Assembly (NCBI RefSeq): GCF_003096095.1
Contig: NZ_CP015453.1
Location: 3,286,001-3,350,000 of the forward strand
Source of the DNA: Dietzia psychralcaliphila
GTDB lineage: Bacteria; Actinomycetota; Actinomycetes; Mycobacteriales; Mycobacteriaceae
Reading direction: 5' to 3'
DNA length: 64,000 nucleotides
In this document: in pieces, positions 11,650 through 39,770 of the stretch
Numbering within the stretch: position 1 is the first letter of the stretch
How the letters are laid out: every line of letters starts with the position of its first letter
Program-made: the position numbers and the translations under genes
Notes under the pieces: generated by a model
What the model was told of the DNA's origin: nothing
Database searches by the model: none
What the model saw: only the letters and a program-made list of their open reading frames with translations

Positions 11650-14307
11650 CTACCCGCGCCGGAGCGCCAAGGCCGCGCGCGGTGCGGACCGCCGGACCGC
11701 CCGGGCACCCCGTTCCCAGAGCACCCACACGAGCAGGCCGACGGCTATCGACGCGGCGAACGACAGCCACACGTGGCCGGCGTCGCGGATCGGCGGGTAG
11801 ACGAGGAAGTGGGTGAGGTAGATGAACAGCGACGCCGCGGCGAGCGGGGTGATCACCCGGACCACCGGGCGCGGCAGGCGGACCGACGGGATCCAGATCA
11901 GGGCGAGCAGTCCGGCCGTGATCACGACCTCGCGCCCCGGGTCACCGAACCACCCCGGCGCACACAGCAGCGCGACCACCGAACACGCGATGCGGAGCCA
12001 CACCGCGTGCGCGGGAGAATCGGAGCGGCCGGGCGCGGCGGATCGCGCGATGACCCAGCCCAACCCGAACAGCCACAGCACTGCCGGCGCCGAGTACCAG
12101 ACCTGAGGGCCGCCACCCAGGTCGATCAGCCCGAACCTCACGGTGAGCCCGGCTGCGACGAACGCGGCCGGCAGCGCCAGCGGCCACCGGCGGTCGAGGC
12201 GGCTCACCGCGGGCACGGCCATGAGCGCCGCCACGAGCAGCAGCCCGTAGACCACCGCCTCGATGAACCACATCTGCCACGGGTTCCACCAGCGGTCCTC
12301 CCACCACGACCGCGGCCCGAACAGGTTGGTGGCCAACAGTGGCGAGTACCAGTGATAACGGCTGGTCAGTGGCGTGACGATCAACAGCCAGAGCACCGCC
12401 GGCACCGCGATCCGCCCGGCCGTGCGCAGGACCCCGCGGGCGCGGTCGCGGGCGTCCGTGGCGTGGAGTCGGAACCGCGCCAACGAATAGCCGGCCAGGG
12501 CCACCAGGACGTGGGCGCCGCCGATGATCGCGATGGCCCGCGTGTGGGAACCGACTATCGCGAGGATGAACAGCGCGCGCAGCACGATGGAGGTGTCCAC
12601 CCGCGCCCATGCCCGCCACGGCGCCCACCACCGGGCCACGGTGGGAACGCAGGCGCGGGCCAGTTCGTCGAGCTCCCCGACCGGACACAGGTGCCAGTCC
12701 CGCGGCAGGCCCGGCACCCGCTCCTCGAGCTTCGTGGACAGCACCACGTAGGTCAGCGAGTCGCCACCGAGGTCGACGAAGGTCGCATCGGGGTCGAGCT
12801 CGCGGGCGTCCAGGCCGAGGGCGTGCGCGATGAGCTCACCGGGCGACCCGGCGGCGTCGTCGGCCACCGCCCGGTTCCTCGCGGCGACGAGCTCGCGCAG
12901 CGCCATCTGGTCGATCTTCCCCGCCGGGGTGCGCGGCGGTTCGTCCACGACGAGGACCTCGACAGCTGAGGCTGGCAACCCCGATGAGGAGGCGGCTCCC
13001 GCTCGTGCGTCCTGCGTCCGATCGGCGTCCCTGGTCACCACCACCAGTCGATCCGGCTCGCCCACACACCACGCGTCCACTCCGCGGTCGGCCAGCGCGG
13101 CCTCGACGCGCCCGAGGTCGATCCGGTGGCCGAAGATCTTGGCCTCGCGCCCCATGCGGCCCACGATCTCCACGAGGCCGTCGTCGGCGATCCGCGCGAG
13201 GTCCCCGGTGCGCAACTCTGTCAGTTCGGGGCCGCGGGCGAGGTCGGCCGAGTCGCGGGCGTAGCCCATCATCACGTTGGGACCGGTGTAGACGAGCTCA
13301 CCCGGGGCATCGGGATCGGAGCCGTCGGACTCCGAGGAGTCGGGATCCGAACTGTTCGGCCTGTCCACCCGGAATGCACCGCCGGGGATCGCGACGCCGA
13401 TCGCCCCGGCCCGGCTGCGCGCGAGGTGTGGTGGCAGGTAGCCCATGCGGGCGGTGGCCTCGGTCTGGCCGTACATCACCACGAGCTCGGCGCCCCTGGC
13501 CTCGAGCCGCTCCGCGAGCGAGCGCACCTTCTCCGGGGCCAGTCGGCCGCCGGCCTGGGTGAGGTAGCGCAGGCGGGTGAGGTGGTCCAGCCGGTCCAGC
13601 CCCACCCGTTCGAGCAGTTCCACCGTGTGCGGGACGGCGGCGAAGGTCGTCACGCCGTGGGCGCCGGCGCGCTCCCAGAACTCGGGGGTCGCCACGGAGT
13701 CCTCGTTGAGCACCACGGAGGCGCCCACGAGAAGGTGACTGTGGATCACCGACAGGCCGTAACAGTAGTGCGGCGGGAGGGTGGTGATCGCGCGGTCGCC
13801 GGGCACGATGCGCAGGTACTCGGCGATCGCCGCGGCGTTGGACAGCACCGCCTGACGCGACTGGCGGACGAGCTTGGGCGACCCGGTGGAGCCCGAGGTA
13901 CTGAGCAGCAGGGCGAGGTCGGGGTGGAGCTCGTGGCGCGGCGGGGTGTGGTGCGAGGAGCTCGGGATCGCCTCTCCCGCACCCGCCACGACGTCCGGGG
14001 TCCACGAGTCCACGAGGCTTCGCGTGGCCGGGCTCTCCGGCGGTAGGAGCAGGATCGCGTGACCTGCTTCGTGCGCGGCGAGATAGTCGACCAGGAAGTC
14101 GCAGGTGTTGCCCGCGACGAGGCCGATCATCCGCCGCCCCGATGCCACCGCCGGGTATTCGGTCGCCCGGTCGTAGACGCGAAGGGCGAGGTCGGTGTAG
14201 GTGAGTGTGGTGTCGTCGTCGATCACGGCCACGGCCCGGCCGCGGGCCGCGAGGGCCCTCGCGAGTCCCCCGACCTGCCCGGTATGCCCTACCTGCGTGA
14301 TCGTCAC
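11650..14307 (-). CDS. Adenylation domain - carrier protein - membrane acyltransferase fusion
   Basis: An 885-residue three-part enzyme. The adenylation domain (about 1-490) has STSGSTGSPK, YGQTEATARM, RTGDLARIADDGLVEIVGR and PRTPAGKID with the catalytic Lys. A carrier domain (about 495-570) has the phosphopantetheine Ser in DLGGDSLTYV. The last 300 residues are an integral membrane domain with about eight to ten helices, resembling acyltransferase family 3 (VLRALFILAIVGSHTRA; WFIEAVVYGLLL). The order suggests that an acid is activated, loaded on the carrier and passed to an acceptor by the membrane domain, much as DltA, DltC and DltB do as separate proteins. GTG 14307 is probably leaderless behind an iron box. 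The substrate and acceptor are unknown. Confidence 0.88.
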   Translation of the reverse strand: MTITQVGHTGQVGGLARALAARGRAVAVIDDDTTLTYTDLALRVYDRATEYPAVASGRRMIGLVAGNTCDFLVDYLAAHEAGHAILLLPPESPATRSLVDSWTPDVVAGAGEAIPSSSHHTPPRHELHPDLALLLSTSGSTGSPKLVRQSRQAVLSNAAAIAEYLRIVPGDRAITTLPPHYCYGLSVIHSHLLVGASVVLNEDSVATPEFWERAGAHGVTTFAAVPHTVELLERVGLDRLDHLTRLRYLTQAGGRLAPEKVRSLAERLEARGAELVVMYGQTEATARMGYLPPHLARSRAGAIGVAIPGGAFRVDRPNSSDPDSSESDGSDPDAPGELVYTGPNVMMGYARDSADLARGPELTELRTGDLARIADDGLVEIVGRMGREAKIFGHRIDLGRVEAALADRGVDAWCVGEPDRLVVVTRDADRTQDARAGAASSSGLPASAVEVLVVDEPPRTPAGKIDQMALRELVAARNRAVADDAAGSPGELIAHALGLDARELDPDATFVDLGGDSLTYVVLSTKLEERVPGLPRDWHLCPVGELDELARACVPTVARWWAPWRAWARVDTSIVLRALFILAIVGSHTRAIAIIGGAHVLVALAGYSLARFRLHATDARDRARGVLRTAGRIAVPAVLWLLIVTPLTSRYHWYSPLLATNLFGPRSWWEDRWWNPWQMWFIEAVVYGLLLVAALMAVPAVSRLDRRWPLALPAAFVAAGLTVRFGLIDLGGGPQVWYSAPAVLWLFGLGWVIARSAAPGRSDSPAHAVWLRIACSVVALLCAPGWFGDPGREVVITAGLLALIWIPSVRLPRPVVRVITPLAAASLFIYLTHFLVYPPIRDAGHVWLSFAASIAVGLLVWVLWERGARAVRRSAPRAALALRRG

Positions 14308-14343
14308 CCGACCACTGTAAAAGGTAAGGCTATCCTAGGACAA
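14308..14343 (-). promoter_or_regulatory. Iron-box promoter of the acyltransferase fusion
   Basis: On the minus strand TTGTCC (14338-14343) and TACAGT (14314-14319) are 18 bases apart. The spacer is filled by AAAGGTAAGGCTATCCTAG (14320-14338 on the plus strand), which agrees with the DtxR/IdeR consensus at about 14 of 19 positions. The predicted transcription start coincides with the GTG start codon at 14307, so the message should be leaderless. Repression by iron-loaded IdeR is inferred. Confidence 0.7.
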
Positions 14344-37223: not shown

Positions 37224-37787
37224 TCAGCGGAAGTTCAGGTACGCCTTGGAGGCCGTCGGGCCGCGTTGCCCCTGGTACTTGGAGCCCGTCGCGGCGGTGC
37301 CGTACGGCACCTCGGCGGGACTGGACAGCCGGAACAGGCACAACTGGCCGATCTTCATCCCCGGCCACAGCGTGATGGGCAGGTTGGCCACGTTGGACAG
37401 CTCGAGGGTGATGTGGCCCTCGAACCCCGGGTCGATGAACCCGGCGGTGGAGTGCGTGAGCAGACCGAGACGTCCGAGTGAGGACTTGCCCTCGAGCCGG
37501 CCCGCCAGGTCGTCGGGCAGCGCCAGTCTCTCCAGGGTGGCGCCCAGGACGAACTCGCCGGGGTGCAACACGAACGGGTCCCCCTCGGCGGGCTCGACCA
37601 GTTCGGTCAGGTCGTCCTGCTGTTGCGCCGGATCGATGTGGGTGTAGCGCGAGTTGTTGAACACGCGGAACAGACTGTCGAGGCGGACGTCGATGCTCGA
37701 CGGCTGGATCAGCGAGGAGTCGAGGGGGTCGATCGTGAGCCGCCCGTCGGCGAGCTCGGAGCGGAGGTCACGGTCGGATAGCAGCAC
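37224..37787 (-). CDS. dcd: dCTP deaminase
   Basis: A 187-residue trimeric nucleotide deaminase that supplies dUTP (or dUMP directly in bifunctional actinobacterial forms) for thymidylate synthesis. Motifs include [14 protein letters not shown], the catalytic region [20 protein letters not shown] with its Glu nearby (LEGKSSLGR), and [20 protein letters not shown]. Length fits the family (about 190). GTG 37787 starts 20 bases inside the end of the upstream DUF2470 gene, so the two are overlapping and probably co-transcribed from the iron-box promoter or an internal one. Confidence 0.95.
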
Positions 37788-38547
37788 GGTCTAGAGGGTA
37801 ACGCGACCCCCCGGCGAGCAGTCGGAGCTGGGTGCCCAACTCCGTGACGTTGACGCACGCCTCGGCGAAGGGCAGTCGCTCCCGGTGGATGCGCCCGTCA
37901 CGCCCGACGAGTTCGATGTCCACCCCGGCGCGGTCGATGCCGACCAGCAGCGGGCGCTCGGCCGGGAGGCAGCGGCACACGCGGAGGGCCATCCGCGGCA
38001 CCACCTGACAGCGCGGGTCGTTGAGGTGGTCCAGCCAGTGCCCCTCGAGGTCGGCGAAGGGGTCGGGGCCGGAGGTGGCCAGGTCCTCGGGGTCGATGTC
38101 GGTCACGCCGTCGTCGTCGGTGAGGACGACCCGGTCAGCGCGGAGCCGCACCAGGGCGACGCCGGTTCCCACGTCCAGCAGGACGGGGTCCGGGAGGTCG
38201 CGGGCGATCTCCCCGGCGGTGCTGCGCTGGGCGCGCACGCCCGGAAGTTCCACACGACCCTCGACGACGACGATGCGGCGACAGCGCCCCTCGGCCGCTC
38301 CCCCGATGATCTCGTCGAGGACCTCGAGCCGCGCCCGCACACCCCCGACTCCGATCGTGACCGCGTCGGCCATCGGTAGCGCCACCCAGAGGTCGGCGGT
38401 CCCGGGCACCTGGTGCACCAGGCTCACCTCGGGAGGGGGCACGGCGGCCGTGACGGACGGAAGACTCAGTGCGGCCCGGGGGCACCGGCGCAGCGCCGAG
38501 CTCACTCGTTCCGCGGGTTCCGGGATCGGCCCCACCAGTGATCGCAT
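37768..38547 (-). CDS. DUF2470-domain protein, iron-box controlled
   Basis: A 259-residue cytoplasmic protein. The C-terminal half carries DUF2470 features ([23 protein letters not shown] near residues 155-180, then [16 protein letters not shown] and [20 protein letters not shown]). DUF2470 is the C-terminal domain of HugZ-type haem oxygenases and also occurs alone. The N-terminal half is a diverged relative of the same unit. ATG 38547 is chosen because GAGGAG lies four to five bases upstream; the frame is open to 38574. It lies behind an iron box and a 14-bp leader hairpin and overlaps dcd by 20 bases. A role in haem or iron metabolism is inferred from domain and promoter. Confidence 0.8.
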
Positions 38548-38573
38548 GCCAACTCCTCGTCGTCGTTCCCGCA

Positions 38574-38608
38574 CCGTTCCGGCGCCTCAGGGGAAGGCGC
38601 CGGAACGG
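38574..38608 (-). promoter_or_regulatory. 14-bp leader hairpin upstream of the DUF2470 gene
   Basis: CCGTTCCGGCGCCT (38574-38587) pairs perfectly with 38595-38608 across a seven-base loop. If transcription starts at the iron-box promoter (about 38636), the hairpin lies in the 5' leader, 15 bases before the GAGGAG. It may instead end transcripts from the upstream paralogue. No T-run follows. Confidence 0.55.
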
Positions 38609-38635: not shown

Positions 38636-38671
38636 AGCGACTAACTTAGGTAAGGCTTACCTCTAAAGCAA
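38636..38671 (-). promoter_or_regulatory. Iron-box promoter of the DUF2470 gene
   Basis: On the minus strand TTGCTT (38666-38671) and TAAGTT (38643-38648) flank a 17-base spacer. The spacer and -10 are covered by TTAGGTAAGGCTTACCTCT (38646-38664, plus strand), about 15 of 19 positions of the DtxR/IdeR consensus with a perfect GGTAAG-G-CTTACC core. The layout equals that at 14314-14343. Repression by iron-loaded IdeR is inferred. Confidence 0.75.
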
Positions 38672-38701: not shown

Positions 38702-39553
38702 TCACCCGGCGAGTGAGGTGAGCTCTCGTCGTACATCCTCGGAATCACGAACGACCTGCGCGAACGGGATCCGGACGACCTCTCTGACCCCGGTCGCGGA
38801 ACCGACCGAGAGGTCCAGCCCGAACCTGTCGATGCCCACGATCCACGGGCGGGTGCCGGCGATCTGGCGGCCCGAGCGCAACGCGAGCCGCGCCGCGAGG
38901 CCGGTGTCGGAACCGAGGCGGCGCAACCACGCCTGCTCGTCGATGCCGATCGGGTCGACCGCCGCCGCCGCGAGGTCGCCACGGGGGATCACGTACGCCC
39001 CGTCGGCACACAGGTAGGAGACGTCGAGCGGCTGCAGTTCGCTCAGACGCAGCGATCCCGCCTCCCCGTTCGGGCCCGACCCGCCCCCGTCGGCGGCGAC
39101 CAGCCTGCGCCGCCTCGTCGCCGAGGACGCGGTGACGATCCCCGAGATGGTGACCACTCCGCGAGCCACGGCGCAGTCGTCGTCACATGGCGTGACCCGA
39201 CCCCCTGCGCGCGGACTCCCCGAGCGCGGGCCCCCCGAACGCCGGACCTGCGCCGAGGGCCGGCCGTCGACCGCGAAGGACGGCCCCCCGCCGGACTCAC
39301 GACACCGGCCGGTGCACACCGTGTCGACGATCTCGACCGACGCCGAACCGCCCGCCGACGCGACTCCGGCCGACTCCCCCGCTTCGCGGGACATGCCTCC
39401 GACGTCCACCACCAGCACGATCACACCGTCATCGCGGACCCGCGCCGACCGCAGCGGTCGCGTCAGGAGCCCCGCCCCGACAGTGCCGGCGGCGCCGCGC
39501 GCCAGGACGGTCCGCACACGCTCGGCGATCGGCCGCTCCGTCACGTCGTCCAT
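38702..39553 (-). CDS. DUF2470-like paralogue
   Basis: A 283-residue protein paralogous to the one downstream. The C-terminal part aligns by eye: LQPLDVSYLCADGAYVIPRG, PWIVGIDRFGLDLSVGSATG, VRIPFAQVVRDSEDVRRELT. The central region (residues about 95-150) is Ser/Gly/Arg-rich with several Cys (TVCTGRC, CDDDC), which the paralogue lacks, and could bind metal or be disordered. GGGAGG precedes ATG 39553; the frame is open to 39592. No iron box is visible before this copy, but it is followed by one at 38646. Function not known; a haem or iron link is by family only. Confidence 0.72.
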   Translation of the reverse strand: MDDVTERPIAERVRTVLARGAAGTVGAGLLTRPLRSARVRDDGVIVLVVDVGGMSREAGESAGVASAGGSASVEIVDTVCTGRCRESGGGPSFAVDGRPSAQVRRSGGPRSGSPRAGGRVTPCDDDCAVARGVVTISGIVTASSATRRRRLVAADGGGSGPNGEAGSLRLSELQPLDVSYLCADGAYVIPRGDLAAAAVDPIGIDEQAWLRRLGSDTGLAARLALRSGRQIAGTRPWIVGIDRFGLDLSVGSATGVREVVRIPFAQVVRDSEDVRRELTSLAG

Positions 39554-39770
39554 GATGATCCTCCCGGCATGGCTCGCCCGCCGGCCGTACACCCGGCCCT
39601 GAAACGGACTCTCATCCTTTTTCAGCGCCGATCGCGGCCGGTTCCATACCCGTATTCGCGCAGAATCGTCGTGAGACCTGCCACATCATCAGGCCGCGGC
39701 GGCTCCGGTAGGCCCCCTGCCCCGGCCACGGATATGCGCCGTCCCCTGCATACGTGGTGGAATCGAGGGC

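Follow-up and report, generated by a model that had tools for sequence, protein, structure and literature searches.

Membrane proteins of the acyltransferase-3 (AT3) family are described as users of acyl-coenzyme A (acyl-CoA) whose mechanism is still largely open, and three papers on them, PMC9558356 and PMC9833829 included, name fusions with SGNH, alanine racemase and NRF domains as well as acyl-CoA donors. We analyzed a gene that encodes an AT3 domain behind an adenylation (A) domain and a carrier (T) domain in one chain, located in a 64,000-nucleotide stretch of the Dietzia psychralcaliphila genome (contig NZ_CP015453.1, positions 3,286,001 to 3,350,000; henceforth the window). The fusion resembles the AT3/TmAT proteins OafB and HGSNAT in its Pfam match, its HGSNAT fold and an invariant Arg-x10-His in helix 1, but it carries its own A and carrier domains and lacks the helix-3 RxxR motif in 50 out of 52 aligned members. 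What appears to be new is this unusual AT3 donor arrangement together with a strong, unexplained tie to ferric iron import; the AT3 superfamily itself is known.

D-alanylation by the Dlt system requires three proteins, uses an MBOAT transferase and handles an amino acid. The fusion shares with DltA-DltC-DltB the logic of ATP activation, a carrier thioester and transfer by a membrane acyltransferase, but it is one chain, has an AT3 domain and lacks the Asp that binds an amino group. A preliminary description of the window had proposed a Dlt-type system; the analogy stands, but the membrane part is of the AT3/TmAT kind and not of DltB's MBOAT family. The epsilon-poly-lysine synthetase Pls also has an A-T unit followed by membrane helices in one chain, with condensation-like domains where the fusion has AT3. 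Among A domains, VinN, AfcQ and BolO have an arginine at position 331, a reported carboxylate binder that is matched by Arg287 of the fusion, although VinN has Asp230 and a shorter loop where the fusion has Cys or Ser and a loop one residue longer. Stand-alone A domains of the CaiC-like ligase kind have acid-pocket motifs nearly identical to those of the fusion, but they accompany a separate acyl carrier protein (ACP; loci L076 and L079), have no AT3 domain and show no iron box upstream in nine out of nine loci. The partner system of the fusion is of the SfuABC/YfuABC/FbpABC type. In the literature searched, chiefly open-licence papers, we found no characterized fusion of these three domains, no AMP-binding/Fbp pair and no acyltransferase partner of Fbp-type importers; the preliminary description likewise knew of no characterized member.

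We propose, with a probability of roughly 0.55, that the fusion is a self-contained thiotemplate acyltransferase, induced by iron starvation and acting together with Fbp/Sfu-type ferric import. The proposal draws on computed domains, invariant residues, an iron box, importer co-occurrence and adjacency, and the loss of RxxR. Taken by itself, a role in ferric iron acquisition is likely.

Domain composition of the fusion

The 885-residue frame, first noted as a three-domain protein from its letters, proved real. All three Pfam matches exceed their curated cut-offs (Table 1), with Acyl_transf_3 (PF01757) at 6e-16 and 58.8 bits against a cut-off of 31. MBOAT was absent among the four Pfam families that matched the fusion at E up to 10. 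The AlphaFold2 model of the whole fusion has a mean predicted local distance difference test (pLDDT) score of 88 and a predicted template modelling (pTM) score of 0.54, which leaves the mutual placement of the domains uncertain, and the matches listed in a fold comparison with this model were all A domains. Folded separately, the AT3 part reached a pLDDT of 91 and a pTM of 0.90 and matched the HGSNAT fold, as expected of a TmAT protein. Fold and profile place the membrane part in the AT3 superfamily, as a variant and not a canonical acyl-CoA AT3, which bears out the likeness to acyltransferase family 3 noted earlier.

In the 52-row family alignment, Lys464, Ser517, Arg577 and His588 are all invariant. 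The catalytic Lys and carrier Ser expected of an A-T loading module of the non-ribosomal peptide synthetase kind are thereby present in every row. Domains and invariant residues support the union of activating, carrying and transferring functions in one predicted chain, in line with the activate-carry-transfer logic proposed at the outset.

Association with ferric iron importers

Neighbour clustering and profile searches revealed a three-gene ATP-binding cassette (ABC) importer adjoining the fusion. Importer genes are adjacent at 24 out of 40 actinobacterial loci, 22 of them with a binding protein and two with importer genes running to the contig end. The importer also occurs in 7 out of 18 further regions of genomes of the GTDB family (two of these with a fusion only ~33% identical) and beside the fusion in two out of six plasmid records examined, both of which annotate the set as an iron ABC transporter. 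Its placement varies: it may share the strand of the fusion, either upstream or downstream of it, or lie on the opposite one. In a FastTree phylogeny of 68 fusions, the linked or unlinked state changed at least 11 times.

The solved structures nearest to the linked binding protein of D. aurantiaca are YfuA (E 3.7e-116) and SfuA (5.1e-115). An adjacent Tyr-Tyr pair, which we take to be a ferric ligand in FbpA proteins, is kept in 34 out of 34 binding proteins near fusion loci. The His and Glu ligand patterns matched only part of these 34 rows, and we make a claim for the Tyr pair alone. If the likeness to YfuA and SfuA holds, the importer would take ferric ions rather than siderophores.

We used the D. 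aurantiaca binding protein as query (E up to 1e-20) against 301 sampled genomes of the GTDB family and obtained matches in 135. The preliminary description had suggested a search for the same domain order in related genomes, and the fusion was found in 63 of the 301, spread over 14 of 31 genera. The binding protein is present in 63/63 fusion genomes versus 72/238 genomes without the fusion (Fisher 3e-27). The difference is found outside the genus Dietzia (51/51 versus 69/227) as well as within it (12/12 versus 3/11). Of note, four Dietzia fusion genomes have the linked type (80-100% identity) and eight, including that of the window, have only an unlinked type (31-36%); at this threshold no Dietzia fusion genome has both. 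Two of the three Dietzia exceptions without a fusion are assemblies of 87% and 78% completeness. G055, the third exception, is 99% complete; in 12 kb of a 13.2-kb contig it carries a partial gene of the linked type, and the fusion gene is absent from that stretch. A siderophore synthetase control (PF04183) showed no link (12/63 fusion genomes versus 37/238, p 0.56), and a general link of the fusion with siderophore genes was rejected for this family.

In the sampled family, the fusion is strongly tied to Fbp/Sfu-type ferric importers. This link in 63/63 fusion genomes points to an additional iron-supply step in dietzias, rhodococci, mycolicibacteria and nocardioids; some of these organisms have uses in industry and bioremediation.

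The window gene itself is alone at its locus, between a CN_hydrolase gene and an LTD/endonuclease gene; a place in a siderophore operon was rejected on account of these neighbours. In three other Dietzia (L030-L032), the same gene clusters occur upstream, and the importer separates them from the fusion. On the FastTree tree, the clade that holds the window protein falls among linked clades, and therefore the linked importer was probably lost in this lineage, which retained a different one. As a separate observation, contig 38 of G055 (L134) carries what is perhaps a decayed locus.

Iron box in the promoter

A DtxR/IdeR-type iron box lies 13-31 bases upstream of the GTG start of the fusion, as expected of a DtxR/IdeR regulon member. 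Nine places in the 3.9-Mb window genome match the degenerate consensus with up to three mismatches, the fusion box included, versus two for a reversed control pattern. At a threshold of 13 or more of 19 letters, a box stands near the start of the fusion or of a neighbouring binding-protein gene at 46 out of 61 actinobacterial loci, some of which come from close relatives or the same genome. The background is 193 of 12,200 random 350-base windows of the same loci (1.6%), a set from which the boxes were not excluded, with two windows allotted to each locus that has a neighbour. The fusion gene thus appears to be iron-switched, and the earlier suggestion of use under iron starvation gains from the box, from its recurrence and from importer co-occurrence and adjacency.

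A second iron box was seen in the window at 38646-38664 (15/19 letters), ~70 bases upstream of a 268-aa frame with no match in Pfam; the upstream neighbour of this frame on the same strand encodes a DUF2470 protein. The frames 37768-38574 and 38702-39592 beside this box look similar near their ends by eye.

Table 1. Features of the fusion gene and of the unlinked importer in the window genome
Feature	Position	Strand	Basis or remark
A-T-AT3 fusion protein gene	11650..14307	(-)	885 aa, GTG start
Adenylation domain, residues ~15-475	12883..14265	(-)	Pfam AMP-binding 1.2e-38; AlphaFold2 model and structure matches
Carrier (phosphopantetheine) domain, residues ~486-552	12652..12852	(-)	Pfam PP-binding 4.3e-8
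Acyltransferase-3 membrane domain, residues ~565-868	11704..12615	(-)	
Arg287, at the place of VinN Arg331	13447..13449	(-)	invariant 52/52; alignment with VinN
Lys464, catalytic lysine of the adenylation domain	12916..12918	(-)	invariant 52/52
Ser517 of DLGGDSL, expected phosphopantetheine attachment site	12757..12759	(-)	invariant 52/52
Arg577-x10-His588, R/H pair of AT3 helix 1	12544..12579	(-)	both invariant 52/52
Place of the AT3 helix-3 RxxR, here RxxxR	12412..12426	(-)	motif not kept in the fusion family
DtxR/IdeR-type iron box in the fusion promoter	14320..14338	(.)	14/19 consensus letters; whole-genome scan
Unlinked Fbp-type importer genes of the window genome	G000:C1:~1016616-1020236 (L131)		32-44% identical to linked type
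Iron box heading the unlinked importer genes	G000:C1:1016546-1016564		

The acyl donor of the AT3 domain

Equated through their spacing, Arg577 and His588 would correspond to R14 and H25 of OafB, both of which are essential in that protein (PMC9833829). The same paper mentions conserved arginines of AT3 helices 1 and 3, and in canonical AT3 proteins the helix-3 RxxR is credited with contacting acetyl-CoA (PMC13345540). We found RxxR before the helix-3 proline in only 2/52 fusions versus 25/26 AT3 domains that could be located in other proteins of related genomes. These controls came from 32 loci, of which four without a match and two that were mislocated were dropped; many are mutual orthologues and some have further domains.

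Because a phosphopantetheine on a carrier lacks 3'-phospho-ADP, the most economical interpretation is that CoA was replaced by the fused carrier. The missing RxxR, together with the retained R/H pair, suggests that the carrier is the acyl donor of the fused AT3, and we infer this to be probable. Such a donor would depart from the preference stated in the AT3 review, in which evidence to date favours acyl-CoA over ACP (PMC9558356). A fusion that supplies its own A and carrier domains and has no CoA motif would make it possible to track the loading of the donor, the channel and the transfer within a single protein, each step by its own point mutant.

The acid activated by the adenylation domain

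The highest identities to solved structures, among 50 listed structure matches, were to HitB, VinN and PltF (26-28%). Naming the substrate from NCBIfam was rejected since none of the best 25 of 93 models reached its cut-off. In the VinN loop, numbered K330/R331 (PMC11253843), the arginine of the CKR sequence aligns with Arg287 of the fusion. Arg331 or its equivalent is reported to hold a substrate carboxylate (PMC12186527, PMC7756342), and Asp230 of VinN holds the substrate amino group (PMC11253843). The Asp230 column of the fusions has Cys in 40, Ser in 11 and Ala in one of the 52 rows. The register at position 235 differs between the LgrA and VinN alignments, and neither gives Asp; the other possible register of the amino-group column has Gly in 52/52.

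An amino-acid substrate is unlikely in view of the missing Asp, which counts against that half of the original proposal of an amino or hydroxy acid; a hydroxy, keto or dicarboxylic acid may be the substrate. The position of Arg287 on VinN Arg331, combined with the missing Asp, leads us to guess at a dicarboxylic-type acid, one that has a second acidic group but lacks an amino group. We hold this tentatively and at less than even odds, as the guess depends on a single residue, and the loop around it exceeds that of VinN by one residue.

The pocket motifs of the fusion are common to nine stand-alone A domains, from which the fusions split on one tree branch (support 88, not decisive). Two loci of this group hold compact ACP-FabG-A domain-LuxE-LuxC-PglD islands (L076:9004-14416 and L079:8683-14103) in which the A-domain pocket is nearly as in the fusion. 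They encode an ACP, a FabG-type reductase, LuxE, LuxC and a PglD-type gene; the Pfam names LuxE, LuxC and PglD_N were obtained for L076 only. Flagellin glycosylation islands are described as holding ACP, LuxE, LuxC, CaiC-type ligases and FabG (PMC4875605).

Proposed mechanism and alternatives

We propose that under low iron DtxR/IdeR would leave the box and the fusion would be made. Its A domain would activate one small carboxylic acid using ATP, and the phosphopantetheine of the fused carrier would bind the acid in thioester linkage. Taking the place of acyl-CoA, the carrier would dock at the cytoplasmic face of the fused AT3. The AT3 would then transfer the acyl group to an acceptor that is widely available and most likely located at the outer face of the membrane or beyond it; an extracytoplasmic acceptor is slightly favoured. 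The acylated product would help bring ferric iron to the importer: if the acyl group kept a carboxylate free, it could capture the ion for the importer, whether the acceptor is a surface component or a small molecule. The full form of this idea, a new iron acquisition aid in which an AT3 pore fed by its attached carrier puts a dicarboxylate on an outside acceptor and so gathers ferric iron, is speculative and less likely than not. Neither the importer-less loci among the rows listed nor the 40 most shared neighbour clusters showed a partner gene that recurs beside the fusion beyond local synteny. This fits a self-sufficient enzyme, makes it likely that acid and acceptor are common molecules and suggests that no exporter is needed, which in turn fits delivery at the outer face by the AT3 pore.

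Several observations weigh against this proposal. The window fusion gene stands alone, with the importer 2.28 Mb away. The 19-letter consensus used for box scoring is one that we take to be that of DtxR/IdeR, and no box reached the 13-letter threshold at 15 out of 61 actinobacterial loci. In the named-genome set, no binding protein was found near any of the 10 non-actinobacterial fusion loci; at L063, one of the ten, a different ABC ATPase lies 3.7 kb away, with two weak permease matches. Because these 0/10 binding proteins are joined by 0/13 iron boxes outside actinobacteria, the iron role may not hold across the whole fusion family. The p-values ignore phylogeny, the co-occurrence sample is one GTDB family, and unlinked genomes of Cryobacterium, Microcella and Agromyces fall outside it. 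Likeness is the sole reason for naming binding proteins at 29-37% identity Fbp-type. Turning to the donor, an Arg is kept at 628 in 27/52 rows or at 632 in 25/52; it could still touch a phosphate, which leaves some doubt about a carrier donor, for which the loss of RxxR is indirect evidence. Finally, the AT3 protein AimS matters in low iron while metal content is unchanged (PMC13345540, a preprint).

Both a diffusible chelator and plain envelope remodelling are good rivals. The fusion could be a one-gene metallophore system in which the AT3 joins the acid to a small metabolite, giving a diffusible iron chelator that feeds the Fbp-type importer. The iron box and the importer association would be accounted for, AT3 proteins are reported to modify small molecules too (PMC13345540), and the gene is often alone among the rows listed, so both building blocks would be common metabolites. 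The associated importer, however, resembles the ferric-ion kind (YfuA/SfuA) and not a siderophore importer, no exporter or second biosynthetic gene was recognized in the 40 most shared neighbour clusters (not all of them annotated), and the window genome already has an IucA/IucC gene. We regard a metallophore as possible but doubtful. Slightly less probable in our view is an iron-responsive acylation of a surface glycan or lipid that alters charge, permeability or signalling with no role in uptake. AT3 acceptors are described as mostly surface sugars (PMC9558356), the nearest stand-alone A domains (L076, L079) lie in sets close to the flagellin glycosylation islands (PMC4875605), and the unchanged metal content of the AimS case would fit; yet envelope remodelling leaves unexplained both the Fbp-type binding protein in each of the 63 fusion genomes sampled from the family and the repeated importer adjacency.

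Dlt-like aminoacylation, in which an amino acid would be activated and put on an envelope polymer, is very improbable. The resemblance to Dlt is one of logic, but Asp occupies the amino-group position in 0/52 rows, DltA was not among the best 25 of 93 models nor among the best 60 of 106 chains, and the MBOAT transferase of that system has an AT3/TmAT domain in its place.

Distribution of the fusion family

The fusion family is widespread. The closest named relative of the window protein, at 88%, is from Dietzia natronolimnaea, and the next ones are also from Dietzia, a genus in which 12 out of 23 genomes have the fusion. A scan of named genomes gave 60 related loci. In ten of them (L076-L084, L086) the match is confined to the A domain, and the other 50 are fusions or truncated copies, 40 of them actinobacterial and 10 not (mainly alphaproteobacteria). 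Locus counts are partly non-independent, as the members of the pairs L028/L029 and L027/L115 derive from one genome or from nearly identical ones, and neighbourhood genes were called by a simple GC-frame script and no gene finder. The fusion also matches 34 plasmid records, including plasmids of Rhodococcus, Mycolicibacterium and Leisingera. A two-gene form on a Leisingera plasmid was rejected, as it reflects a break inside the A domain and not two natural proteins.

Two loci showed further arrangements. One genome of the GTDB family has two tandem fusion genes (L102:7961-13228) and a third copy elsewhere. In a deltaproteobacterial metagenome-assembled genome (L070:110-5599), the fusion lies directly behind frames that, by eye, are glycosyltransferase-like and asparagine-synthase-like, with an MBOAT-like frame, also recognized by eye, nearby.
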